From the NCBI RefSeq assembly GCF_963678975.1, contig NC_089276.1:2253445-2317444 (forward strand): 64,000 nucleotides of DNA. The letters are read 5' to 3'. The first letter of the stretch is position 1, and every line of letters begins with the position of its first letter. Under the pieces are notes generated by a model, which searched no databases, was not told the DNA's origin, and saw nothing but the letters and a program-made list of their open reading frames with translations. Origin of the DNA: Dysidea avara (Eukaryota; Porifera; Demospongiae; Dictyoceratida; Dysideidae). A program made the position numbers and the translations under genes. Below, one piece after another: positions 8,706 through 38,700 of the stretch.

Positions 8706-9265
8706 CTCCAATATTTATATATTATATATATACCCACCATTTAGTGTGGTAGGAGAAAATGAGTGAGTAGCAGGGGCGTAGCTAGACGTTTAGTGATGGT
8801 AGGGCCTAGGTGGGGCACACCTTCGCATCAAGTCCTCCCATGCAATATACATACACGACATACGAGTCCATCTCACTGTGGGCTCTTACACATTTATATA
8901 GAAATCTTATTAAAATGCATGGTTGTGCCTAGCTAGCTAAATATACTGCTACACTGCTGTTTCTGCAGCTAATTGACCCTACAACCTACGCTATTGCTCG
9001 ATCAGCATGCAATTTTACCTAATTTCTTCTTCCACAGCTCTCACGGATTAACTCTTGATCCAAATTTTAATCGGCTAGCAACATGTCACACATCAGCACT
9101 GCAGTGTTGGAGATCCGCTAAACCACAGCGGGCATTAAAAGGAATGCGTAGTAGCATGTGCCTCATCATCTTGACAATCTCCTTTAATAGTATCATAGGT
9201 CTAATCTCCAATCACTACACCTCACTATTCACAACCTTTTTGCAGTGAGCATTAAAAGGAATACT
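8706..9265. other. gene-free DNA with one hAT-like terminus at 8771
   Basis: No coding region is seen. At 8771 a terminus CAGGGGCGTAGCTA begins, of the same kind as the 8-bp-TSD element at 11089. A possible partner end (TAGCTACGCCACTG) lies at 21243-21256. Bases 8732-8770 resemble 17582-17613, inside the element at 17518-18283. Confidence 0.4.
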
Positions 9266-10224
9266 TCATTTATTAATAATAATAATAATAATAATAATGC
9301 TTTTCAGAATAATAATTCTGAGGGTCTACCAGTGACCTACACTGATAGCCTAACATACATTAAAAAATAACTATACACTAACATCTACATACTTAGTTAC
9401 AAGTGGTTAAAATTGTTAGATGCAGGATTCTTGGAACAACGGGAACAGGGACAAAGGTAATGGAAACAACAGGGTGAATTGTCAAAGTAAGTTTTAAACT
9501 CTCAGTAAAACATCTGTGAATGCAGGTTTACTGAAAAACTACTAAAATACCAAACAATTAACTGTTCCATATACTGGGGATATACCACTCTAGTAAACAA
9601 AGAAGTTTCAAGCAGTGCTAGGTAGGCAAAAAAAATAGGAGTTCATAGCTGCATTGGTATGGGCTGTCTTGTAGTGTAGTTTGATTCCAGAAGATCTAGT
9701 AGAACCAGTATTGAAGCTGACATAGTTCAGGATATTGAACTTATCTGTAGGAGTTTTAAGTGATTTGATGAAAAAGAGGATGTCAGATATTTCATAAATA
9801 TACATCAATGGCAACATACCAAGTTGGGTCAATCTAGTCCTGTAGTCTGAAGTGTAATCAGAGAGTATGAATATAGTAGCACGCCTTTGTAATTCTATGT
9901 CTTTCAACAAATAAGGTCTCCACAATGTGGAACAGTATAGCAATTTAGATCTCACTAATGATATGTATAGGGATTTTCTAGCCTGAGGACAATGCAAATC
10001 CTTGAATACTCTGTGTAGCAGTCCAAGTGATTTGTAGGCTTTAGAGGAAATCATTTCATAATGCTTTCTCCATGACAATGAGTTAGTGAAAATAATCCCT
10101 AGGTCTTTGCAACTGGGTGATTCATTGATTATATGGTCATTTATGATGTACTGAGAGTTGAATTTACGATGGAAGCTCATGAATACGGATTTAGAGAGGT
10201 TAAATAACAGATGATTGTTAATAG
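9266..10224 (-). pseudogene. non-LTR reverse transcriptase gene, 3' part
   Basis: From 10219 down to about 9621 the minus strand encodes the end of a reverse transcriptase and its thumb region: KSVFMSFH, then KDLGIIF, then SLYISLVRSKLLYCSTLW. The frame is then cut by a MITE fragment (about 9480-9620). It resumes at about 9477-9406 with the cysteine-rich tail CFHYLCPCSRCS and a stop. A 3' (ATT)n tail at 9274-9298 marks the retroposon end. The 5' part continues at 20714-20970 after a 10.5-kb insertion. With one copy of the AATAG duplication removed, the two parts read in the same frame. It is decayed and inactive. Confidence 0.8.
9480..9620. mobile_element. partial copy of the 246-bp MITE seen at 26515
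   Basis: About 140 bp match the right portion of the element at 26515-26760, ending in the same terminus CTTCAAGCAGTG. The left end is missing or diverged. It sits inside the C-terminal region of the minus-strand reverse transcriptase and supplies the false last residues of that frame. Confidence 0.65.
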
Positions 10225-10912
10225 CAGGGGCGGATCCAGGGGGGGGCTTTGGGGGCTGAAGCCCCCTCTTCATATTGAGGCTTTACTTGATCAATATGCT
10301 GAGTATTATAATAAAATTTTGTCTTAGCATAATTATATGATCACTAATAATACAAATACTCATAAAAACATCTTTCCAAGGTATTATCAGTGGATTTATG
10401 CTAAAGTGTATGCAACAAGGATCCGGATCAGCATTGGAGGTGTACAAGATCGAGATACTCTAATAGAGCAGTCAGCTAACTACTCTAATAGAACATTCAC
10501 TGGAAGCATGTAGATGGTTCTGTTATGGCATTTTTTCCAAATCTGCCTGCACCTATACATACAATGAAGTGTATTGGTCTGTTTAAAGGGCTTCATTCAT
10601 CTACTTGTGTAGTTAATATGTATGGAAATACTTAATTCAGGTACACAATTTCCATTGAAAATGCTCTCAGATTCAATCTTGCATTGTTCAAATTTCAAAA
10701 TTTTCCACTTTCAACATTATTATTCTAACATGCACCTATTCTTGGTTGTCAGTACCTACCCAAACTTTTCCATTAACAAAATGCTTCAGAGAGCCATACC
10801 TATAATCTAAAGACACTATATAAAATATCTACAGGCAAAAAATATTAGGGATTTTATGTGGAAATGTCTCCAAATTGCAGTATTTTAGCATCTATTTTTC
10901 AGTTTGCTCAAG

Positions 10913-12672
10913 ATGACGGATGTTCGCCCGCTTAAACGTACTGCGGATGAAGTTATATCGCCTGATGTAGCATCAAGGAAAAAGTCTGCCAGGGACGGTG
11001 AGTCCTTTGTTTGTACAATTTGTCTAGAATCTATTGCTCCACCAACTGATGATATCGATGAGAGAGAACTGATATTTTGTGAGGGTAACAGAGGCGTAGC
11101 TAAGGGGGGGCAAGGGGGGGCATTTGCCCCCCCATCACTAAATGATTTTTTTAAAACCTTCGTCACAAGTTTACCAGTATTAAACTGACATGCAAATGCC
11201 TGTAAATTATGTACACCACTACGCGGTATCACCAGGGGTTGCTAGTGAATGTGCACACACAACATTCAACTCGCTCGTGAATCCATCGAACGAAAATATT
11301 AGAGACATACTTCTATATTTAGCCTAGATTACTCGCGTGATCGAACATTTTTGAATCTAAAAAGGGTGACCCGTTTCTCCTCGACAGGAGTCACAACTCA
11401 CAAGTGACAAAGGAGACCAGATGAGGCTATGAGCCTACTGCCTACGAGGTGATAAAGCGTTAGCTAAATAAATGTACCATTATCGAGTCGATCACACTGG
11501 ACCTTTGTACGTACGACAGTGCAGTCTGTTTTTACTTTGTCAGTCAGTCAGGTGGATCAGTCAAGCTTACAAGTTCTGCTAGCAAGACAGGTGGGATTTC
11601 ATGCAATACATTGCATTTGAATTTCGCCGAGTGAAGTGAATGAATACGTCATCCTGTCAGCAGTGTGCTAGAACTGCAGCACAGGCTGTGGCTAACGTTT
11701 GTATTTGCACTAAATTATTAGCTCTACCGGACTGTGGATGAATTTGTTGGAGTACAGTTGTGGCACGTGCGATGATGCTCGACGAATGTAGCTACCTCGA
11801 TTGGAAGCAGTCAGTACTGAAATAGTTACGTAGCTAGTTATTTAAGCTGTAATAATACAACACCGTATGTTGGCTAGCCCACCATTGGGTTATTAGCCTT
11901 TTTTTTGCAATCATGAATGATTTTGAATGTTTCGTGGGGGCATGCCTGCCCCTCCATCACCTTCTGGCTAGCTACGCCCCTGGAGGGTAAATGTGACTCT
12001 TGGCTTCATAGGAAATGTGCAGGGCTACCAAAACCAATATTTGATTCAATCAGATTGTCAGAGACCCCTTTTCATTGCCCATTCTGTCGCTTAACTAATT
12101 ATGAGTGCTTATTTAATGATATGAAAGCTACTATTGCATCACTAGAGCAAACGGTATCTCAACTTGAGAAAAACTCAACACCCACTATAAACACTGTCAG
12201 ATCTGTGAGCAATACTAGTAATGAACCTCATGATTCCACATTGGTGACTCCACAAACAAAGGAAACACTGCCTGATCACAGCATACAAGACATGGTTGCA
12301 ACTCTACTTAATGAGGAGAATGAGAAGCGTCGCTTGAATATTATTGTACATAATGTACCGGTGTCTTCATCTGAGGAAAGTTTGACTAGGAAGAATGAAG
12401 ATACAGAATTTGTGAGTAAACTATGTGAGTCTCAATTTAATACAAAGGTGTCAATAGTTAAAGCATACCGTCTTGGTAAAAAGGGAGCTAAACCTAGATT
12501 ACTTAAGATTTCATTATCATCAGTTTCTGAGAAAGCCACAGTTCTCAAGAACTGTACCCAACTTAGAAATCGGAGCACACCACCTCCGTATCAGAAAATC
12601 TTTATTTCCCCAGATTTAACCCCTAAGGAACAAAAGAGAAGTAAAGAACTAAGATCTGAACTAAAAGAATGA
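10913..12672 (+). pseudogene. CR1/L2-like ORF1 (PHD finger, coiled coil), copy 1, interrupted
   Basis: The frame opens at ATG 10913, nine bases inside a longer frame that begins with TTG. A PHD-type zinc finger starts with FVCTICLES. It is cut after IFCEG by an 894-bp MITE (11089-11982) and resumes at about 11991 with CDSWLHRKC and FHCPFC. A coiled-coil stretch and a basic region (RRLNIIVHNVP, then FISPDLTPKEQ) follow, matching copy 2 at 13677-14565. The frame ends at TGA 12670-12672, where copy 2 reads on for about 20 more residues. The TGA overlaps an ATG of ORF2 (ATGA), which is probably a chance effect of the mutation. Confidence 0.8.
11089..11982. mobile_element. 894-bp hAT-like MITE with 8-bp TSD
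   Basis: Termini are CAGAGGCGTAGCTA on the left and TAGCTACGCCCCTG on the right, each followed inward by G-rich or C-rich runs. The 8-bp duplication GAGGGTAA at 11081-11088 and 11983-11990 is perfect, as expected of hAT elements. It lies inside the PHD-finger codons of ORF1 copy 1. Removing it with one duplication restores the frame, so it inserted after that retrotransposon. No transposase is encoded. Confidence 0.88.
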
Positions 12673-13676
12673 AACAAAAATGGCCGTCTTTATTAGATAA
12701 AAAACAGGTCAATAGTGCGGAGGAGGCAGTAAGCCACCTTTGCACTGATAATCAAACCTCCATCCAAGCTCAGGACTATTTTGACATTGCCATAATTAAT
12801 TTTCAAAGTATTATATCTAAGCAAGCTAATTTTTCCCTGTTTCTAAATGATAATCACCCAGATATAATTTTGGTACAGAAAAATGGCTATCCTCAGAAAT
12901 CAAATCCAGTGAAATTATCCCAAACATTTATAACATTGTACATCATGATAGAAGTGATGGCTATGGAGGAGTACTCATAGGAATACGTAGTGACCTCAGT
13001 GTTATTGAATGTTCTACAGAAACTGATTCTGACTTAGTTATTTGCAAGATAATTCTCCCAAACAAAGAACCAATTCTTTTGTGTGCAGTTTACAGACCAC
13101 CTAATTCTAACTTGGTTTATCTTGAAAACGTGATAACTACACTCACCAATATAGTACGCAATAACCCTCAGTCTCCGATTTGGATAGCAGGTGACTTTAA
13201 TCTTCCCATCATTAATTGGAGTGATGGCTCAATATCTGGAAACAACTACCCTCACACCTTTGCAGAGCTCCTTCTAGACTTTTCTAACACTTATGGTTTC
13301 ACACAAATGGTTGATGCTCCTACCAGAAAACACAATATAATAAAAAAATAAAAAAATCACGTGATTACGTATGGTGGTTCTTCGACAAGAGTGCTGTTTC
13401 GTTGTTTTAATAGCTCCCAGAGGCATATTTTGAACGTGATTAGGCTTCTTTTGATGTTTCTTTTACCAAAGTTTGTTCGTCTGATCACTGGTGTGGATAT
13501 CCTAGAGATCTTACTCCAAGTAACGCTCGCCACTAAACGCTCCACCTTGTACCGTGGTGTCCAACGTCTCTGCGTCTGGTAAAACGGTACCACAAAAGGC
13601 GAGACTTCAGTACTTGTTTGTTCTGTTTTTGTTGTGGTGTTTCCCTATAGTTTTATTGTGAACAACAATTTTGAGT

Positions 13677-14565
13677 ATGCCAAAGCGTGGAAGAGTACCA
13701 GGGGGAACTCCACCGTCCAAGGAAGGGAAGAAGTCAGCTAGTTTGTGTGTTACTTGTAGTAAGGAGTCAAGTACTGATTGTGTTGAATGTGATTGGTGTG
13801 GGAAATGGCAACACAGAGAGTGTGCTGGGCTATCTACATCAGAATTAGAAGCGCTAGCAGATATATGGGATCGTCAGCCCACTGAATCAAATGTCATGTT
13901 TTTTTTGTACTGTGTGTAAACCAAAGGTCACACTAGCCCTGAAGTTCTTCACAGACATACAAGATAAGCAGGATGAAATGGAGAAAAGACTAACGGAGAT
14001 AGAGGACAATCTGAAGAAATTACAACCTGTGGATTCAACAGAAGCAAATCCTAGTGACCAAACACAACCCACTCTTCAAACACAGCCGGTTTCTCAGTCT
14101 AAAGAGCAAATATCTGAAATGGTGTCTTCCTACATTAATGAAGAAAAAGAAAAATCCAAGAGACGTTTGAATGTTATAGTACATAATGTTATTGAATCAA
14201 CATCTGAGGATCCTGAACTTAGACGTAAGCATGACATTGATTCTGTGTCATCCATCTTTCATAAACATCTGACAGTCCCTGCCACAATAACTAAAGCAAT
14301 CCGGTTGGGCAAGAAAAGCGATAGGCCAAGACTCTTGAAGGTTTCGGTTGCGTCTGAGTCAGACAAGGCATCAATTATGCGAAATTGTACCAAACTTCGC
14401 AATGTTAACCTTCCTAGCATAGTTCAAAAGGTTTTTATCACCCCTGATCTCACACCTAGGGAGCAGGAAGTTAATAAGAAGTTACGTGCTGAACTTAAAG
14501 AACTAAACAAGGATGGGAACAAATTTAAAATAAAAAACTGGAAAATAGTGCAGAGGAGCCCCTAG
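13677..14565 (+). CDS. CR1/L2-like ORF1 protein, copy 2, one frameshift in a T run
   Basis: The start is ATG 13677, two codons inside a TTG-opened frame. A PHD-type finger occupies residues of about 25-80 (CVTC, then CDWCGKWQHREC, then CTVC). A coiled coil (DKQDEMEKRLTEIEDNLKK) and a basic domain (RRLNVIVHNV, then ITKAIRLGKK, then TPDLTPREQE) follow. The last CxxC and everything after it lie in another frame, entered within the run of eight T at 13899-13906. Seven T would keep one frame. This may be a real mutation, an assembly error in the homopolymer, or slippage. ORF1 proteins of this class bind the element RNA (known). It overlaps the open frame of ORF2 by 37 nt. Confidence 0.85.
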
Positions 14566-17408
14566 CCGGGCCCCCCTGCACTGATAATTTTACACTTAAT
14601 CCTGAAATTTTGAATCATTCTGATATATTAGATGTAGCTGTTGTCAACTGTCAAAGTGTCCTTGCAAAACGACTTGATTTTCAGAACTTTATAAACTGTC
14701 ACTCACCAAAAATCATCATTGGTTGTGAATCATGGCTGTCTCCCTCCATAGTTTCAAGTGAAATTTTCCCCCAACAATATCAGGTATACCGTAAAGACAG
14801 ATTCGATGGTTACGGGGGTGTATTCATTGCTTGTCACAATTCATTGTTGTCTACTGCACTTGAATACCATAGCACATCTCTATGTGAATTGATAGTATGT
14901 AAAATTCAGTTAGCCACAGGCCCTCCACTTATTATTTGCTCTGTGTATCGCCCACCAAATGTAGATATACCATATTTAGAAAATCTTTGCACTGTCCTAC
15001 GTGATATAATGGATCACAATCCTAATTCCGTTGTGTGGATTGCAGGTGATGCAAATTTCCCAAATATAGATTGGGACTCCTACTCAGTTAGTGGTAACAA
15101 TTATCCTGTACATCTGTGTGAAACTTTTCTCAACTTCATTGAGGATTGTGGCCTAACACAAACTGTCAACTTTCCAACTAGATATGCAAATACTCTTGAT
15201 ATTTTCCTAACAAATCGACCATCATTAGTACTTTGTTGTAAACCATTGTCAGGGATTAGTGATCATGATATCGTGTATGTGAAGTCTACTGTAGAAGTCA
15301 AACAACAAAGCAATCCCTCAGTGCAATCTTATAAACTCTGGAACAGGGCAAACAACGATATCATCAGTGAATACATTACAAGATCTAGTGAACAGTTTTT
15401 AGAGGAACATGATATGGATACACAAGTTGATGTCTTATGGAAAGTGTTCAAGGAAATGTGTCAAAAGTGTCTAGATATGATTCCATCCAGAACTTATAAA
15501 CCTGGCCATAGCCCCCCTTGGATGAATCCCGCCATTAAACGTCTATCTCACAGGAAGCAAAGACTATATAATTTGGCCCGACATTCCAAGTCTAGTGATG
15601 CCTGGCAAAAATATCGACAGATTAAGAAAGAAGTTCAAAGGGCATGTCGGCAATCCCACAACTCCTATATTCAACACTTAGTCACCCCTGGAACATATTC
15701 TACAACTAAGAGGTTATGGAGTTACATTAAGAGTCAAAAGAAGGACTACTGTGGCATACCACCATTACTAGAAGGAGACACTCTGATCTCTGATACAGCA
15801 ACCAGAGCAAGCTTATTGAATGACTATTTCTCATCTGTCTTTGTTAAAGAAGATTTAAGTTCTGTACCACATATTGAAAATTTACCTATCCCACTAATGG
15901 AACCTATCAGTATTAATCCAGAAGGTGTTAAAAACTTATTAGAAAACCTGGAGGTAAACAAAGCTCCAGGTCCAGACCAAATTCCACCCCGATTTTTAAA
16001 AACCTTTGCAAACTACATTACGCCATTTCTTGTGCTGATCTTTAGGGCCTCTTTGCATCAAGGTCACCTTCCATCTGAATGGAAACATGCTACTGTTGTA
16101 CCTGTTTTTAAAAAGGGAGATCGTAAATTACCATCTAACTACCGCCCAATATCCTTAACATCAATCTGTTGTAAAGTTCTAGAGCACATCATCTATTCTT
16201 CCATCAGCTCTCATTTGGAAAATCATCAACTTATTCGAGAAGAACAGCATGGTTTTCAGAAAAATAAGTCCTGTGAAACACAACTGATCTACACAATTCA
16301 TGAATTTGCAACAATACTTAATGATGGTGGAGAAGTGGATGCTTTATTTCTTGACTTTAGCAAAGCTTTCGATAAAGTTCCACATGTAAGACTTCTTCAA
16401 AAACTTGAGCATTACAGAATTTGTCCACAACTTGTCAATTGGATAAAAGATTTTCTTGGACAAAGACAACAGCAAGTAGTTCTGAATGGTGTAACTAGTG
16501 AGAAGTGTGAAGTTATCTCTGGCGTACCACAAGGTACAGTACTTGGCCCTTTACTATTTACTTGTTTTATTAACGACCTACCAGCTCTAGTGAACTCTCA
16601 GATACGACTCTACGCAGATGATATACTTATTTTTAGACCGATTTACTCAAATGAAGACACTTTAGTATTGCAGAGAGACCTTGATGCCATAGTGAGGTGG
16701 AGTGAAGACTGGCAAATGTTTTTCAACCTTAGCAAATGTGTACACCTCAAGATCACTAACAGGATATTAACAACTAACTCAACATATTTTCTGAAACAAC
16801 ATCAAATTTGTAGATCTACCAGTGCCACTTACCTGGGAGTAACAATAGATGAACACCTCAAATGGACAAACCATATCCAACATGTTACCTGTAAAGCAAA
16901 CTCAGCCAATGCCTTTTTGCGTCGTAATATTAGCTCTTGCACTCAACAAACTAAGAAGCTGTGTTATCTAGCAATGGTACGTCCTATCTTAGAGTATGCA
17001 TCAACTGTCTGGTCTCCATACACTAACAGTAGCATCTACAAGTTAGAAATGGTCCAACGAAGAGCTGCAAGGTTTATTACAAACAATTATTCACCCTGGG
17101 CTAGTGTAACTGAGATACTAGATCACCTGAATCTACCAACTCTTGAACAGCGACGGAACAATTTGAAGCTAGTTATGATGTATAAAATGGTGCATAGACA
17201 AGTTCACATCGATAATGGAACCTATTTAATCCCAACAGCAAGCCAAACACGAGGTCACGATCAACGATTTTTGCAGCCACACTCCAGAATTGATTCTTAC
17301 CTTTACTCTTATTACCCCTCTACAATTAAATTATGGAATAACCTATCTAGCAGTGCTGTGGAATCACCTACCTTAAACACATTTAAACAATGTATTAATT
17401 GTAGCTAA
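14529..17408 (+). CDS. CR1/L2-like ORF2: APE endonuclease and reverse transcriptase
   Basis: The frame is intact from the codon after TAA 14526-14528 to the stop at 17406-17408. The domain order is APE-type endonuclease (VVNCQS, CESWL, RKDRFDGYGGVF, YRPPN, IAGDANFPNIDW, ISDHDIV), a linker rich in basic residues (about 15500-15720), then reverse transcriptase (NKAPGPDQIPP, NYRPISLTS, FLDFSKAFDKVPH, SGVPQGTVLGPLLF, the catalytic RLYADDIL) and a C-terminal domain. All catalytic motifs look complete. No ATG precedes the endonuclease domain. Translation must start at a non-AUG codon (CTG 14538 or TTG 14610 are candidates), by reinitiation after ORF1, or by frame change. It nicks target DNA and copies the element RNA at the nick (known for the class). 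Confidence 0.93.
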   Translation, partial: NKKLENSAEEPLAGPPCTDNFTLNPEILNHSDILDVAVVNCQSVLAKRLDFQNFINCHSPKIIIGCESWLSPSIVSSEIFPQQYQVYRKDRFDGYGGVFIACHNSLLSTALEYHSTSLCELIVCKIQLATGPPLIICSVYRPPNVDIPYLENLCTVLRDIMDHNPNSVVWIAGDANFPNIDWDSYSVSGNNYPVHLCETFLNFIEDCGLTQTVNFPTRYANTLDIFLTNRPSLVLCCKPLSGISDHDIVYVKSTVEVKQQSNPSVQSYKLWNRANNDIISEYITRSSEQFLEEHDMDTQVDVLWKVFKEMCQKCLDMIPSRTYKPGHSPPWMNPAIKRLSHRKQRLYNLARHSKSSDAWQKYRQIKKEVQRACRQSHNSYIQHLVTPGTYSTTKRLWSYIKSQKKDYCGIPPLLEGDTLISDTATRASLLNDYFSSVFVKEDLSSVPHIENLPIPLMEPISINPEGVKNLLENLEVNKAPGPDQIPPRFLKTFANYITPFLVLIFRASLHQGHLPSEWKHATVVPVFKKGDRKLPSNYRPISLTSICCKVLEHIIYSSISSHLENHQLIREEQHGFQKNKSCETQLIYTIHEFATILNDGGEVDALFLDFSKAFDKVPHVRLLQKLEHYRICPQLVNWIKDFLGQRQQQVVLNGVTSEKCEVISGVPQGTVLGPLLFTCFINDLPALVNSQIRLYADDILIFRPIYSNEDTLVLQRDLDAIVRWSEDWQMFFNLSKCVHLKITNRILTTNSTYFLKQHQICRSTSATYLGVTIDEHLKWTNHIQHVTCKANSANAFLRRNISSCTQQTKKLCYLAMVRPILEYASTVWSPYTNSSIYKLEMVQRRAARFITNNYSPWASVTEILDHLNLPTLEQRRNNLKLVMMYKMVHRQVHIDNGTYLIPTASQTRGHDQRFLQPHSRIDSYLYSYYPSTIKLWNNLSSSAVESPTLNTFKQCINCS

Positions 17409-17455
17409 GTACAATCACTATAATTTATTCTTAATTTAATCTGTTGTACTATATA

Positions 17456-17467
17456 CTCCATATGGAG
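17456..17467 (+). other. 3' UTR stem-loop of the CR1/L2-like family
   Basis: CTCCATATGGAG is a perfect palindrome just before the CTGTACAGTAAACAAATAA tail of copy 2. Copy 1 has ACTCCTTGATGGAGT at the matching place (20517-20531), with different loop bases but a kept stem, followed by CACAGTAATAAATAA. A kept stem with a changed loop suggests a recognition hairpin for the element's own reverse transcriptase (inference). Confidence 0.55.
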
Positions 17468-17517
17468 GTTTCTGTACAGTAAACAAATAATAATAATAAT
17501 AATATTTTAGACTTATT

Positions 17518-18283
17518 CAGGGGCGTAGGGAGGGGGGGTTCAGGAACCCCCCTGTAAAATTTAGACTTCTGCAAGCAGGATCCTAACACACCATTTAGTG
17601 CGGCAGGACAAAATGAGTGAGTTGATAAAACTTACATTCATCTCTCAGGGAAGGATTTACAGAGGTAACATGAGCCCTCTTCAAAACTTGTTAAGAAGAT
17701 CGATATAGTCTAATAGAGCAGTCAGGTATATACTCTAATAGAGCAGTCAGGTATACTCTAATAGAACATGCATGTAAATATCCATGTACATATGAAGTTT
17801 TTCAGACATTCCAACATTAAATGCAAAACTTAGCATGACCTTATATTGCTATAGCTTTGGTGTGCAGTGTTTAAAGATATAGAGCTCCAGTAATTTATCA
17901 CTTTTATTATGCAAAATTAATTCATGCTATGCATATTTGTATAGTTAGCTATATTGATTTGATTGTCATTTGTATCAGTGGATTCATGGCTCCTATACCA
18001 CAGTGAGATATAACTATCACTTACAGATTACTATATGTGTCTCTATGTGTTATGCTGTCTGTTTCCACTAGGTGACTTTATCTAGTACTACCTTTATCCC
18101 TGGGGCACTTAATGCATCATAATTAATGTACTTTTTGTATAAAATATAGTAATTTGCTGAGTTTTGATTTATTAAAATATTGAAAGTCTCTCAGCGGCTG
18201 GGGGCTGTGCCCCCAGACCCCTGCTACTAGTAACTCAATGCTGGTGCTGGAACCCCCTTCAAAAAATCCTGACTATGCCCCTG
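17518..18283. mobile_element. 766-bp MITE with CAGGGGC termini
   Basis: The termini CAGGGGCGTAGGG and GACTATGCCCCTG are flanked by CTTATT on both sides (17512-17517, 18284-18289). Both ends continue into runs of the type GGGGGGTTC and GAACCCCC. Three copies of the CTCTAATAGAG motif lie at 17709-17768. It inserted into the reverse transcriptase sequence of copy 1, a few bases past the 3' end of copy 2. No open frame of note. Confidence 0.8.
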
Positions 18284-20709
18284 CTTATTCCTTACAAATC
18301 GACCATCTTTAGTCAAATCATGCAAGGTCATCCCAGGATTTAGTGACCATGAAATTGTGCATATTTCCACTTATGTGTCAGCACCTTGTAAATTAAACTC
18401 AAGAAAAGTTTTTCTTTGGCATAAGGCTAACTTTGATTTAATTGAAGAAGTCATCCTAAACTTCAATAATAGTTTTTTAAATGATTATACCCTTGATACT
18501 CCTATTAATACTCTGTGGAATAAATTTAAATATCTTTGTGAATCCTGTTTAGCCCTTGTACCACAGAAGCAGACATCAACCAAGTTTCGAACTCCATGGA
18601 TAACTGCCCAAATCAATAGATTATCAAGGAAAAAGCAGCGTAGATACAACACTGCTCGCTCATCCAACCTTGCAAAAGACTGGGAAAGCTACCATAATTT
18701 GAAGAAAGAATTGCAATGTTTATGTCGAAGATCTCATAACAACTATCTTTCATCACTGCTGGACTCACATAACAAACTCACTAAAAGATTTTGGTCTTTT
18801 GTTAAGGGCAAACGTAAAGATCAGGTTAGCATCAATACACTATGCTCTCATGGACAAGTGTATACTGATAGTAAAGACAAAGCAGATATTTTAAACAAAC
18901 ATTTTTCATCAGTATTTACTGAAGAGGATTTGGATTCACTCCCCACTATCCATGGATCCCACACACCAGATATTTCAACTCCTGACATTAATCCTATTGG
19001 CGTCCAAAAACTTTTAGGAGACTTGGACATACATAAAGCATCAGGACCAGACAATATACCATCAAGATTACTAAAAGAAACTGCTAGTCTCATGGCTCCT
19101 CTTTTGACTCTTATTTTTCAAGCCTCTATTCAACAAGGTACTGTCCCGGATGAATGGAAGAAAGCTAATGTAGTGCCAATTCACAAGAAAGGATCTAGAA
19201 GTGATCCGGGTAACTATTGACCTATCTCATTAACCAGCATTTGCTGTAAAACCCTTGAACATATTATTTACTCCTGTATCTTTACGAATCTCAATAAATA
19301 CAACATTCTATGTGACAATCAGCATGGTTTCCGTTCCAAGCGATCATGTGAAACTCAACTACTGGGTGCAGTGAACAATTTTGCTAAAGCATTGAACTCT
19401 GGAGAACAAATTGATGCTTTGTTTCTTGACTTCTCCAAAGCATTTGATAAGGTACCTCACGAAAGACTTTGTCACAAATTATCACACTATGGAATAAATG
19501 GCCACTTGCTAGATTGGATCAAAAGTTTTCTGACAGAAAGAACACAATCAGTTGTTATTGATGGAGAAAATAGCTGTCCTTCTACAGTACTTTCCGGTGT
19601 GCCACAAGGCAAGTTTTGGCACCCTTATTGTTTTTAATATTTATAAATGATATTACACAAGATCTCCAGTGTACTGTTAGACTTTATGCAGATGATATCT
19701 TAATTTACAACATCATTCATTTTCCCAATGACTCTGAGCATCTTCAACAAGATTTATATACTTTACAAGCATGGGCCAGGAGATGGCAAATGGAATTTAA
19801 CCCAGCTAAATGTGTACATCTTACAATTTCAAATAAACATCATATTATTGAACATAACTATTACTTATTTGATCACCTAATTCAAAAGGTCTCCAAGGCA
19901 AAATATCTAGGAATAACATTTGATGAACATCATACTTGGAAAAATCATATTCATAACATCTGTCATAAGGCCAATTCAGCCTTAGCTTTTCTGAGGAGGA
20001 ACGTCAATCATTGTCCAATTTCTGTAAGATCTCATTGCTATAAGTCCCTTGTCAGACCCATACTAGAATATGCTTCACCTATATGGGCTCCTCACCTTCA
20101 ATCTGATATTTTTGCCATAGAAAAGATTCAACATAGTGCTGCAAGGTATACAATGAACTATTACTCCTGGAGAAGTAGTGTTACTAACATGCTCACATCA
20201 CTTAATTGGCCCTCTCTAGAATCACGACGTACATTTTGCAAACTAGTCATGTTTTATAAGATAATCAATTGTCAAATGGAAGTTCCATCTATCTCACTAA
20301 CATCAATGTCATCAGTTACCAGAGGTCATTCACAACGTTTCAGAATCCCACAAGCAAGAATCAACTTGTACTTATTTTCCTTTTTACCATCCACTATTAA
20401 ATTATGGAACACTTTGCCAGAAGATGTGGTCAATCAGCCATCTATAAACTGTTTTAAGGACATTTTGTTAAATCATCTGAATTTACTTTGATTTTGTTTT
20501 TGTATCTGTGTGTTATACTCCTTGATGGAGTCCTACACAGTAATAAATAAATAAAAAAATTTCAAAATTTTCCTGGGGGGGGGGCATGCCCCCAGACCCC
20601 CTAGTTCCAGCATGCTTCGCATGCTGGGAAGTGTGACTTTGCACACCTTTACCCAAGAGATTAGTACCTTGAGTTAGCCCCCCCTTTATAAATCCTAGAT
20701 CCGCCCCTG

Positions 20710-20970
20710 AATAGTCCAATTAAATAAAGAGTTGAGGTCTTCTTGAAGCTGCTGTATGTCCAGTATGGAAATGATTTGCCAAAAGCACTTTGTATCATCT
20801 GCAAATTCGAGTAGTTGAGATATGATGGTAGATGGCAGATCATTTATAAAGATCAGGAAAAGCATTAAACCTCTTGCATGTCTTTTATCAAGAACACCTC
20901 ACTCAACACCTGTCATAGAGTATGCTATCACCTTGACTTGATTATTATGATAATTGATATGATCACGATA
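20710..20970 (-). pseudogene. non-LTR reverse transcriptase gene, 5' part
   Basis: On the minus strand this stretch reads into RGLMLFLIFINDLPS and EFADDTKCFW, the reverse transcriptase catalytic region (ADD kept), then LQEDLNSLFNW. That segment runs in frame into the part at 10219-9621 once the 10.5-kb insertion and one AATAG copy are taken away. The segment before RGLML is decayed, with a stop where SGVPQG should begin. The copy is 5'-truncated near 20970. Confidence 0.78.
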
Positions 20971-21353
20971 CGTACAGCCTCATTTTACTGACACCTTCCC
21001 TCCAACTCACACATTTGAACTCGCAATCACGTGATAGTGGGTATTTAATGGAATTTTAATTTTCTTTGTCCGCTGATGTTAGTAATAGCGAAATAACAAG
21101 AAATTGTATCTGCATCGATGATTTTCATATAAAAATCTACATGGTAGCGTTGTGAAAAATCGTCGCGTGTCGAATCACGTGACTTGCAACATTTACTGAA
21201 GGTGGGACCTGGAAAGTTGACGGTGGGGCACAGGCCCCAGTGTAGCTACGCCACTGGACCTGAGTAGCCGCTAGCTATCTAGCTAGTTGGTCAACCATAA
21301 GGTTTTAAACTGAATTTTTATCATCTCCTTGGATGTCGGAAAGATTTAGCTAA

Positions 21354-21912: not shown

Positions 21913-22239
21913 CAGGGGCGGATCCAGGGGGAGTTCAAAGAGTTCCATGGAACCCCCCTTTTGAAAGAGCCTCTCTTACTTGAGATACTCTAATAGAGCA
22001 GTCAAATTGAGATACTCTAATAGAGCAGTCAAATTGAGATACTCTAATAGAGCAGTCACGGTAGTCTTTTGAGGAGCAGTGTAGAAAGTTATGTATCTAG
22101 TTATAAATAAGGAAATATAGTTGGTGATGGGCAGCTATTGTCAGCAGGTAATGACTTTTTTTGTCTTTAACTTACAGCTAGGCTGAAGTTGCAATTCCAA
22201 AGTGGAATTCCCCTTTTTAAAAGTCTGGATCCGCCCCTG
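21913..22239. mobile_element. 327-bp MITE with CAGGGGCGGATCCA termini
   Basis: The ends CAGGGGCGGATCCA and TGGATCCGCCCCTG are exact inverted repeats of 13-14 bp. The flanks ATTAG and ATTAT could be a mutated 5-bp duplication. Inside, a 27-bp unit with the CTCTAATAGAGCAGTCA motif is repeated three times (from 21982, 22009 and 22036). The element at 36230-36557 is a second copy in the opposite orientation, alike from end to end. Confidence 0.82.
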
Positions 22240-27304: not shown

Positions 27305-27389
27305 AGGGCTTTTTGACCTGTCATTTTTTTCTTTACTACAGGAAGAAGAAAAGATGAAGCAGGGTGATTTCTTTGTAGCTGACCTCTCT

Positions 27390-30180
27390 GCAAGGTGATC
27401 CTTGTAGCTCATCCCTCTACCGGATAACTTGTTTGTAGCTGAATGCTCTACAGGGTGATTTGTTTGTAGCTGAACTCTCTACAAGGTAACTTCTTCTAGC
27501 TGATCTTTCTACAGGGTGATTTGTTTGTAGCTGAATTCTCTACAGGGCGATTTGTTTGCAGCTAAACTGCTGAACTCTCTACAATGTAACTTCTCTTCTA
27601 GCTAAACTCTCTACGGGTGTCTTGTTTCTAGCTGATCTCTCTACAGGGTGACTTGTTTGTAGCTGAACTCTCTACAAGGTGATTTGTTTGTAGCTGAACT
27701 CTCTACAAGGTAACTTCTTCTAGCTGATCTTTCTACAGGGTGATTTGTTTGTAGCTGAATTCTCTACAGGACGATTTGTTTGCAGCTAAACTCTCTACAT
27801 GGTAGTTTCTTTGTAGCTGAACTCTCTACAATGTAACTTCTTCTAGCTGAACTCTCTACAGGATGACTTGTTTCTAGCTGATCTCTCTACAGGGTGACTT
27901 GTTTGTAGCTGAACTCTCTACAAGGTGATTTGTTTGTAGCTGAACTCTCTACAAGGTAACTTCTTCTAGCTGATCTTTCTACAGGGTGATTTGTTTGTAG
28001 CTGAATTCTCTACAGGGCAATTTGTTTGCAGCTGAACTCTCTACATGGTAGTTTCTTTGTAGCTGAACTCTCTACAGTGTAACTTATTCTAGCTGAACTC
28101 TCTACGGGTGGCTTGTTTCTAGTTGATCTCTCTACAGGGTGACTTGTTTCTAGCTGAACTCTCTACAGGGTGATTTGTTTGTAGCTGAACTCTCTACAAG
28201 GTAACTTCTTCTAGCTGATCTTTTTACAGGGTAATTTGTTTGTAGCTGAATTCTCTACAGGGCAATTTGTTTGCAGCTGAACTCTCTACATGGTAGTTTC
28301 TTTGTAGCTGAACTCTCTACAATGTAACTTCTTCTAGCTGAACTCTCTACATGGTGACTTGTTTGTAGCTGAACTCTCTACAGGGTGATTTGTTTGTAGC
28401 TGAACTCTCTACAAGGTAACTTCTTCTAGCTGACCTTTCTACAGGGTGATTTCTTTGTAGCTGAATTCTCTACATGGTAGTTTCTTTGTAGCTGAACTCT
28501 CTACAATGTAACTTCTTCGAGCTGAACTCTCTACAGGATGACTTGTTTCTAGTTGATCTCTCTACAAGGTGACTTGTTTGTAGCTGAACTCTCTACAGGG
28601 TGATTTGTTTGTAGCTGAACTCTCTACAAGGTAACTTCTTCTAGCTGAACTCTCTACATGGTGACTTGTTTGTAGCTGAACTCTCTACAATGTAACTTCT
28701 TCTAGCTGACGTTTCTACAGGGTGATTTGTTTGTAGCTGAATTCTCTACATGGTAGTTTCTTTGTAGCTGAACTCTCTACAATGTAACTTCTTCTAGCTG
28801 AACTCTCTACAGGATGACTTGTTTCTAGCTGATCTCTCTACAGGGTGACTTGTTCGTAGCTGAACTCTCTACAGGGTGATTTGTTTGTAGCTGAACTCTC
28901 TACAAGGTAACTTCTTCTAGCTGATATTTTTACAGGGTAATTTGTTTGTAGCTGAATTCTCTACAGGGCGATTTGTTTGCAGCTGAACTCTCTACATGGT
29001 AGTTTCTTTGTAGCTGAACTTTCTACAATGTAACTTCTTCTAGCTGAACTCTCTACATGGTGACTTGTTTGTAGCTGAACTCTCTACAGGGTGATTTGTT
29101 TGTAGCAGCTGAACTCTCTACAAGGTAACTTCTTCTAGCTGATCTACTTCTCTACAGGGTGATTTGTTTGTAGCTGAATTCTCTACAGGGCGATTTGTTT
29201 GCAGCTGAACTCTCTATATGGTAGTTTCTTTGTAGCTGAACTCTCTACAGGGTGATTTGTTTGTATCTGAACTCTCTACAAGGTAACTTCTTCTAGCTGA
29301 TCTTTCTACAGGGTGATTTGTTTGTAGCTGAACTCTCTACAGGGCGATTTATTTGCAGCTGAACTCTCTACATGGTAGTTTCTTTGTAGCTGAACTCTGT
29401 ACAACGTAACTTCTTCTAGCTGAACTCTCTACAGGATGACTTGTTTCTAGCTGATCTCTCTACAGGGTGACTTGTTTGTAACTGAACTTTCTACAGGGTG
29501 ACTTGTTCGTAGCTGAACTCTCTACAGGGTGATTTGTTTGTAGCTGAACTCTCTACAAGGTAACTTCTTCTAGCTGATATTTTTACAGGGTAATTTGTTT
29601 GTAGCTGAATTCTCTACAGGGCGATTTGTTTGCAGCTGAACTCTCTACATGGTAGTTTCTTTGTAGCTGAACTCTCTACAAAGTGACTTCTTCTAACTGA
29701 TCTATCTACAGGATGACTTGTTTCTAACTGAACTCTCTACAGTGTGATCTGTTAATAGCGGAACTTTCTACTGGGTGATTTGTTTGCAGCTAAACTCTTT
29801 GCATGAGTGTTTCTTTGTAACTGAACTCTCTACAAGGTGACTTCTTCTAGCTGATCTCTCTACAGGATGACTTGTTTCTAACTGAACTCTCTACAGTGTG
29901 ATCTGTTCATAGCGGAACTTTTTACTGGGTGATTTGTTTGTAGCTAAACTCTTTGCATGATTGTTTCTTTGTAACTGAACTCTCTACAAGGTAACTTCTT
30001 CTAGCTGATCTCTCTACAGGGAAATTTGTTTGTAGCTGAATTCTCTACAGGGTGATTTATTTGAGCTGAACTCTCTACATGATGGCTTATTTGTAGCTGA
30101 ACTCTCTATTAGGTACCTTCTTCTAGCTGATCTGACTGCAGGGTGACTTGTTTGTAGCTGAATTCCCTACAGAATAACTT
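27390..30180. repeat. 31-bp minisatellite, about 90 copies, higher-order structure
   Basis: The unit is 31 bp. Its constant core is GTAGCTGAACTCTCTAC and the other 14 bp are variable, such as AGGGTGATTTGTTT, AAGGTAACTTCTTC, ATGGTAGTTTCTTT or AGGGCGATTTGTTT. These variants follow each other in a recurring order, so blocks of about 7-8 units repeat as a larger unit of roughly 220-250 bp. The core begins GTAG and ends CTAC, so each unit can form a small stem. A period of 31 is not a multiple of three, so no protein repeat is kept. Units at the right end are more diverged. Confidence 0.92.
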
Positions 30181-35700: not shown

Positions 35701-38700
35701 AGGAAACAATTAATGATTGTAACATAATGGAACTTTGCATTTTAGAACTAGACAAGGTTGGCCACATACCTGTAATTGAACATCTTGTAATCTCAAAGAA
35801 ACACAGAAAACCCATTTAATCCTGAGCAGACACCTCAGCAACAGTATGTAATGACTTATGGCAACTTGTCACTACCACTCATACACATGTTCACACCAAT
35901 AACGTACAGTTACAATTACGTGATACACTATATTATTATTACATATCAAAACTGTTCAACGCATGAGTCTAATGTACAATGTTACACTTGCCCCTCCCTT
36001 GTCTACAAGCAAATGTGTCATCATTTGCAGTGGACCATATTATACAGAAAAATGCTGTGACAATACGATTTGCTGTATGGTCAGGTACAGGGACAGCATC
36101 ACCCTACTTAGCAAAATAATCTTGCAGCACAAGTAATAGCAGTTATTACTGGTTTAAAAGGGAACTTGCAATATGTCCACACTGACCATCTGCCACGGTT
36201 GATCAATTGGGGTGTTTTGAAGTGGAATGCAGGGCGGATCCAGATTTTTTAAAAGGGAGGTTCCACTCTGGAATTGTAACTTCAGCCTAGCTATAAGTTG
36301 AAGACCAAAAAAAAAGCTCATCACCTGCTGCATGCATGACAATAGCTGCCCCTTACCATATATACCCTCACCAACTATATTTCCTTATGTACAACTCCAC
36401 AAGTAGCCTGCTACACTGCTCCTCTTAAGAATACTGTGACTGCTCTATTAGAGTATCTCGATCTTGACTGCTCTATTAGAGTATTTCGAGTAAGAGAGGC
36501 TCTTTCAAAAGGGAGGTTGCATGGAACCCTTTGAAGCCCCCCCTGGATCCGCCCCTGGGATGCGTGTTAGCTTGCTACTTAAGTTTGGACTGCTGACAAC
36601 AAGTAGTGCAGCTTCTGCAGTATTGCTTGATATCTCATGCCATGTTGAGTAGGACAACTTTTCTAAGGTTTGTCCACCCCTCTATGGCCTGCTGCATGAC
36701 TCAGCCTTAGCTGGAAGTAAGGAGAAAGGACAAGTATCGTGACAACTGGCTCCAGTGGTCCAGGTGAGTATATTTTCAACATAGGGTGCCATCAGCAATA
36801 AGCAACTGTTTCTACAGTTGCTTGAATATGCACAGTGAAAGCTGATTCCACATCTTGTCAGATTTGATGACTGCAACTTAGTATAACGTACACAGGGAGT
36901 TAGGCTTTGTAATTCTGGTGCTGAGCATGGTGGAATAGAAACAGTAAAAGAGCATGGGGTTGATGGCAATCATGACAATACATCAGCATTAGTAGTAGTT
37001 GAGCCCTTATGACACACAATTTATACTCTTGCATGGCCAAGGCCCAAAGAATAGCATGCCTTACATCTTTTACTGAGCTAGGCATTGCAGGAGGGCATAG
37101 TCAGTATAAAAATCTACCACAAATATAGTGGCGGAACTGGCCAAAAACAATAGCAAGCTGTATAATACTGAAATTATGCTCAGATGAGGTCAGAGAATCA
37201 GTAAAACATGGCTGTGCTGATAGGAAAGCCACTTGCTTTGTCAGCAGGAAAATTTGATCTTTCAGCTCCTGTAATTATGCGTGCTCCTTGGCGACCTCTT
37301 TAACTGCAGAATCTAACTGTGAATCAATGGTCATCAATAATCAAGCATGAGTAACCACCACTTCACAAGTGTTTTCACTTCTCCTGAAGTCCTTTGTTGA
37401 TTGGTTCTGGATGCCACTAACAAACTGGAGAAGAAGAAGGGAATCTCTTGCATCCTTATTTATTCCTGGAATCACCATCTCTAGTAGCTTCCTTAGGTTG
37501 AGAACAAACATGGAAACTGCTTCGCCAGGTCGCAGTTAACTTCAGTAAAACTCCTCTAGAGATGCAAACTCCATCGGCATTATCACGTTCTGTATCTTCT
37601 TCTTGGTAGTTTCGTGGTCTTTCTCCTGCTCTGCAGTGAGCTCAAGCCAAATAGCCAGTGCTTCCCATTTCAGCAATGTTGGCAACTTATTTGCTTGGTC
37701 CTCCACCTTCCAACCATTTGCCATCAAACATATTCAAACCTCTGAAACCAATCCTCGGCATCCCCACTAGGAAAGGACTGCAGTAAACTGATGTGCCACT
37801 CAGCCACCCTCTGCTACCAGTAAAATGAATTAGAGCAATTTATCACTACCACTTATACACATGTTCACACTTATAATAACAATCACATGATACACTATAT
37901 TATTATTTATTTATTTATGATTACAAAACTGTACATTGTGCAAGTAATGTACAGTATATGTACATGGGAGTAAATATTTTAACGAGCAAATTTAATAAAT
38001 CACGGTTCCCAAAGTCCTTCTTTCAGCCATCCTAACACTTTGTGTGGTTTTCTATCTACTAAATAAATGCTACAGTATTCATAAATCTCGTGAGTATGAC
38101 AAAAGGACTTCACCAATCCCAAGCACCATGTTTGGCTGTGTAATAAAACATACGGCTATGACGCATGACCATCCTTGTCTAGAATTAAACATACCTGCAG
38201 CCTAATTGTCCCTTAAACCTGCATACGTCGATATATTGGCATTTTTTTTATAAAGTGCAAATACACACAATTATTATTACCAATGGATAACCACAAGATG
38301 GCTTCTAAACTGACAGTGTATGAAACTTGTCTAACTAAATTAGTCCAAAAACCACTTATCACTGGAAAGCGTACTCATTGGGCTACTTAGACAAGGATGA
38401 ATAATCACTGTAACAACATTTGCTCATTTGCTATGATGAGCTGAAGATGGACGTCTGGTTTCCCCTACCTCATGAGCGCATGGGAGATACAGTGAACTGG
38501 GAGGGAGTTACGAATCATTTTCTGAAGGTATGTATTGGAATGCGTGTTTTGACTGCGTACATGCTGTTTCTTGGCAAGTTTTGGTCCAGGCTTTTGTCAA
38601 AGGGTAAACCCCTAGGTATTCTTTTATTCCTTATTACAATACAAATACAATTGCACAAATTGCATAGCCATAGGGTTTTTGGTCCGACAGTTACAGCGCT

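Follow-up and report, generated by a model that had tools for sequence, protein, structure and literature searches.

Positions 8771-21256 of a 64,000-nucleotide stretch of DNA from the demosponge Dysidea avara (contig NC_089276.1; the whole stretch, G000:C5:2253445-2317444, is referred to as the window) hold a nest of seven transposable elements in five layers, corresponding to G000:C5:2262215-2274700 in genome coordinates. From the outside inwards, the five levels are fixed as a hAT-like miniature inverted-repeat transposable element (MITE), a long interspersed nuclear element (LINE A), a second MITE of probable hAT5 type, a second LINE (LINE B), and finally a hAT-like MITE (MITE1), LINE C, and a further hAT-like MITE (MITE2). 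Nests of transposable elements are ordinary; the present one is unusually complete. A search of the genome (551 Mb, 108 contigs) found uninterrupted copies at other loci, which supply an empty site for every one of the six internal insertions. Both junctions of each insertion coincide with element boundaries and a target site duplication (TSD; 5, 5, 5, 8, 5, and 6 bp) that is single in the relatives. The families of DNA elements tested for TSDs each display them at the same ends.

A first-pass annotation, made from the letters of the window, had proposed a nest four or more layers deep whose events could be dated relative to each other, and had recommended the search for empty sites that yielded these results. 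The depth is five, and relative dating holds for the five levels. It does not reach the three innermost insertions, because MITE1, LINE C, and MITE2 are siblings within LINE B, leaving the full insertion order unreadable from nesting.

Element boundaries and empty sites

The outer MITE spans 8771-21256 (no strand assigned), has the ends CAGGGGCGTAGC and GCTACGCCACTG, and retains 8771-9276 and 20864-21256 as its own pieces. The stretch 20971-21256 represents a separate family with 42 matches in the genome (best 40 of 89 candidates scored). In 9 of 13 non-self relatives, the half that ends at 9276 is directly followed by the half that begins at 20864 or 20866, which confirms an outermost hAT-like layer that had been put forward only as a possibility. 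Among the four remaining loci, L055 has a 13-base gap, L056 abuts but lacks 9155-9276, L059 has an unmatched left half, and L061 is rearranged. Of the seven loci printed, six have CTTCATTTATTAAACC at the uninterrupted LINE A site and L053 has CTTCATTTACTAAACC; the window has the ATTAA of this site in duplicate. Among the 13 relatives, 9 had two recognisable ends; seven of these measure 857-874 bp and the other two 1476 and 1559 bp, so that the uninterrupted element is about 860 bp long. An exact 8-bp TSD flanks seven of these nine, the other two matching at 7/8 and 6/8 positions. The family, the window copy excepted, thus has the inverted CAGGGGCGTAGC ends and 8-bp TSD of a hAT MITE.

Inserted in the outer MITE is LINE A (9277-20863, minus strand; own pieces 9277-10219 and 20715-20863), a 5'-truncated element flanked by ATTAA at 9272-9276 and 20864-20868. 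It contains what had been described as a minus-strand reverse transcriptase (RT) gene split by an insertion. A query with 9266-10219 gave 44 matches in the genome (best 40 of 1619 candidates scored), and six of seven fetched non-self loci (L002-L007) run from 10224 to 20710 uninterrupted, with a 5-base overlap and AATAG once; the seventh, L008, has no match to the 20710 side. Because L002-L007 are contiguous across the junction, the two RT pieces belong to one copy, the sequence between them is an insertion (10225-20709, exactly 10,485 bp, with AATAG at 10220-10224 and 20710-20714), and an origin of the halves from two copies was rejected. The proposed split gene stands in these respects but not in its end, which lies at 20863 instead of 20970, since outer relatives resume at 20864 and 20864-20970 is outer MITE sequence.

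The 10,485-bp insertion is the layer-3 MITE, a plus-strand element with CAGGGGCGGATC ends whose own pieces are 10225-10901 and 20565-20709. Members of its family are 791-854 bp long (best 40 of 2063 candidates scored). Among 29 non-self loci, the two ends could be recognised in 26. Of these, 22 have an exact 5-bp TSD, as does the window copy, one has six bases, one has seven within a CA repeat, and two have none; the 5-bp length is that expected of hAT5. Across the LINE B site, the match ends near 10901 and resumes at 20556-20560 in 25 of the 29 loci and 20-33 bp further on in the other four (L021, L028, L033, and L034). Six printed relatives show the empty site as ATTTTTCAAAATTT, with the TTTCA that is doubled in the window. 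The earlier description of a CAGGGGCGGATC-type element holding a LINE copy, here LINE B, is therefore correct.

LINE B (10902-20559, plus strand) is flanked by TTTCA at 10897-10901 and 20560-20564. Its 5' junction has microhomology, since the relatives L041 and L044 reach further 5' and also carry TTTCA there; by position, the TSD is at least five bases. The family is small, with 18 genome matches including LINE B itself. Its three guests, all on the plus strand, are MITE1 (11089-11982; 8-bp TSD GAGGGTAA at 11081-11088 and 11983-11990), LINE C (13339-17500; AATAT at 13334-13338 and 17501-17505), and MITE2 (17518-18283; 6-bp TSD CTTATT at 17512-17517 and 18284-18289). These are the MITE, second LINE copy, and CTTATT-flanked MITE that the first-pass annotation had placed inside its copy 1, and the relatives agree with that placement. 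In 10 of 11 non-self LINE B loci (L041-L050), the site is the joined CACAATATTTTAGACTTATTCC, lacking both LINE C and MITE2, from which it follows that the two insertion points lie about 12 bp apart; CACAATATTTTAGACTTATTCC is not present in L051, a 72% identical relative. MITE1 is absent from all three LINE B loci that reach its site, and L044 and L047 show GAGGGTAA once. With inverted CAGGGGCGTAGC ends and an 8-bp TSD in 8 of 10 relatives and in the window copy, MITE1 has the features of a hAT MITE. Both its family and the outer one resemble ordinary 8-bp-TSD hAT MITEs in their short inverted ends, lack of an open reading frame (ORF), and TSD length, and nothing notable sets them apart.

The three LINEs can be placed among non-LTR (long terminal repeat) retrotransposons, a group recognised by an RT with endonuclease, an A/T-rich 3' tail, a short TSD, and 5' truncation, LINE C through its RT and endonuclease domains and LINEs A and B through similarity to LINE C. 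ORF2 of LINE C (14610-17408) is open over 932 aa and matches RVT_1 (6.6e-38) and Exo_endo_phos_2 (7.2e-13) in Pfam, and the ORF1 region shifts frame near a run of T, so that "near-intact" was a fair description. LINE C appears to be young, with the closest relatives among the layers; the best of these, from the 40 of 270 candidates that were scored, are 99-100% identical across 801 bp. The label CR1/L2-like goes back to the first-pass annotation, in which LINEs B and C had been taken for copies of one family. At the protein level, however, they share 45-48% identity over three longer matches and 39% in one further match of 33 aa, and LINE A shares 34% and 43% with LINE C over shorter parts; on these identities, LINEs A, B, and C are assigned to three families. 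Elsewhere in the window, 27360-30172 is a 2.8-kb tandem array of 91 copies of a unit of about 31 bp, and similar arrays lie beside the LINE A relatives L004 and L006.

Order of insertion and competing explanations

It is close to certain that the nest arose by serial transposition into transposable elements that were already inserted. A hAT-like MITE would have been the first arrival, followed by LINE A, truncated at its 5' end. A hAT5-type MITE would then have entered LINE A, and LINE B would have entered that MITE. Three independent landings in LINE B would complete the nest, namely a hAT-like MITE with an 8-bp TSD, the young LINE C, and a hAT-like MITE from a family of mixed TSD lengths. 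The LINE TSDs are ATTAA, TTTCA, and AATAT, and LINEs A and B are shorter at the 5' end than their relatives; 5' truncation is a common outcome of target-primed reverse transcription. The chemistry of these steps is inferred from what is already established for hAT elements and LINEs; the boundaries, target duplications, empty sites, and five-level order are observed. The nest can be explained without invoking a selective function.

Some observations weigh against this account. The outermost copy in the window has no exact TSD, its flanks reading GTGAGTAG on the left and GACCTGAG on the right. Three bases past its right end lies CTGAGTAG, a 7/8 match to the left GTGAGTAG, so that a small later change is possible. 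At the MITE1 site, L041 is short of 8 bp. Divergences give no clean order of the layers either, as they overlap from layer to layer and were computed from best matches only. When each is measured against the majority columns of its closest relatives, the outer MITE differs by 1.2% in its left half and 3.5% in its right half, LINE A by 2.0% and 0.6% in two stretches, the hAT5-type MITE by 2.8%, and LINE B by 0.8-1.0%. Layer dating by divergence was rejected for this reason. A value of 6.2% for LINE A was discarded because the aligned stretches were of unequal length; the shorter stretches gave the two values above.

An artefact of assembly or rearrangement would have separate repeats joined by collapse or mis-join, with RT halves from different copies. 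Mis-joins are possible in principle, given that two families of the nest each yield more than 1500 first-look candidates, yet all six internal insertions have junctions at element ends and a target duplication that is single in relatives, and the window contains no N; such an artefact is extremely improbable. A join at 10225 or 20709 was rejected on the same grounds, AATAG occurring once in relatives, and none need be invoked because the internal insertions begin and end at element boundaries with target duplications. The inexact outer TSD would also suit ends at 8771 and 21256 that derive from two different elements, which would reduce the nest to four layers. The two halves are nevertheless continuous in 9 of 13 relatives exactly at LINE A and its ATTAA duplication, and this alternative carries very little weight. 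It is just as hard to believe that some outer elements were amplified as composites already holding the inner ones, the levels then not being separate events at this locus, since host relatives are uninterrupted at the respective sites in 25/29, 9/13, 10/11, and 6/7 cases and the window's guest is at the site in none of the fetched relatives, although no search was aimed at composites.

With an empty site for each internal insertion, no molecular clock is needed to arrange the five levels of transposon activity in time. Nested insertions are read as a relative chronology in TinT (PMC3014933), and the present case is alike, in the available part of that source, in treating a host element as older than its guest and in taking order from nesting. 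TinT is a genome-wide count there, whereas the present case concerns one locus with seven elements and their empty sites. The nest also offers a good test case for repeat annotation.

Transposases sharing the MITE ends

Elements with a hAT transposase were sought through two Pfam profiles, PF05699 (150 scored hits of 1875 candidates) and PF14291 (150 of 427). Linking by PF05699 alone was rejected, as none of the 20 loci examined (one side, 700 bp downstream) had a convincing CAGGGGCG-type end; a loose match in L161 was unconvincing. With PF14291, 2 of 20 loci examined on one side had an end of this type. One of the elements, L194, measures 3232 bp from CAGGGGCGGATC to GGATCCACCCCTG, is flanked by the TSD TTAAT, and encodes an 835-aa ORF with DUF4371 (2.7e-20) and Dimer_Tnp_hAT (1.9e-8) domains. 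It matches the layer-3 MITE of the window at the ends and along the right subterminal stretch, and it is the one element among the 40 transposase loci in which a hAT transposase was found between the same ends. None of these 40 loci, examined on one side each, had CAGGGGCGTAGC ends.

The hAT5 and hAT6 groups are defined by 5-bp and 6-bp TSDs (PMC12730594, citing Kapitonov and Jurka 2007). As far as the accessible part of that source describes hAT5, the layer-3 MITE and its 3.2-kb relative are alike in hAT transposase domains and a 5-bp TSD, and these features of the relative support a hAT5 type for layer 3. A second element (G000:C14:7287760-7290822) is 3063 bp long, with an 880-aa open frame and the TSD TCCTA. 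Seven copies of it have an equal domain score; five of the six further copies have an exact 5-bp TSD and one has none, giving 5 bp in 6 of 7 overall. This hAT-type element looks recently active.

Two more short elements with CAGGGGCGGATC-type ends lie in the window at 21913-22239 and 36231-36557, in opposite orientation and with 79% mutual identity.

Mixed duplication lengths in the MITE2 family

Mixed TSD lengths in the MITE2 family (relatives L066-L085 and L106-L145), which has CAGGGGCGTAGGG ends, were mildly unexpected. In 30 relatives drawn from the best 40 of 1574 candidates, the TSD is five bases in 16, six in 6, seven in 2, ten in 1, and none in 5. In a control pairing left and right flanks of different copies, an exact match of at least 4 bases arose in 14 of 870 pairs. 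The two families with CAGGGGCGTAGC-type ends, MITE1 (8/10) and the outer MITE (7/9), keep their 8-bp TSD. MITE2 is not filed as hAT6 because a 6-bp TSD is not the family rule.

The family thus differs, in mixing 5-, 6-, 7-, and 10-bp TSDs, from hAT5 and hAT6 as the portion of the source cited above defines them. More than one TSD length is also known from IS481EU, where one family has several discrete lengths of about 4, 15, and 25 bp and TNT or TGT termini (PMC10045372), and from hATm, with an 8- or 9-bp TSD and TAGGGTG termini (PMC6004678). MITE2 is distinguished from both, as the available excerpts present them, by CAGGGG termini and TSDs of mostly 5 and 6 bp. A literature search covering titles and the beginnings of abstracts found no description of a 5/6-bp mixture in hAT elements.

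One tentative explanation, somewhat short of an even chance, is that MITE2 integrated with a relaxed spacing of the strand cuts, giving TSDs of 5, 6, 7, or even 10 bp, whereas families with nearly the same termini keep 8 or almost always 5. If so, TSD length would be set by the transposase and the subterminal DNA as opposed to the terminal bases, and the family would represent an ongoing change between the behaviours of hAT5 and hAT6. In a variant of this explanation, two transposases of different spacing would mobilise the same MITE2. A mixed-TSD family beside families of fixed length and long transposase ORFs provides a natural comparison for strand-transfer spacing. Neither the nest nor the mixed TSDs alter the general picture of transposon biology.

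MITE2 and the layer-3 MITE of the window share the motif CTCTAATAGAGCAGTCA (at most two changes), whereas MITE1, the outer MITE, and the LINEs are without it. All 29 layer-3 relatives contain it internally. None of 9 outer-family relatives does, although 7 of 13 outer-family loci have it in their flanks, and it is not in the 3.2-kb element L194. The motif could be a binding site in the subterminal region or simply a piece inherited from a common ancestor. It is near-palindromic and often tandem, with occurrences at 10458, 10483, 17708, 17733, 21988-22058, 23116, 36437-36481, and 45920. It is found in several DNA elements that have CAGGGGCGGATC or CAGGGGCGTAGGG ends and otherwise little in common, as well as at places where no ends were recognised.

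Outside the nest, the minus strand of 340-1395 holds a 351-aa open frame that has no Pfam match at E 0.01 and that looks like a possible remnant of a MULE-type transposase.

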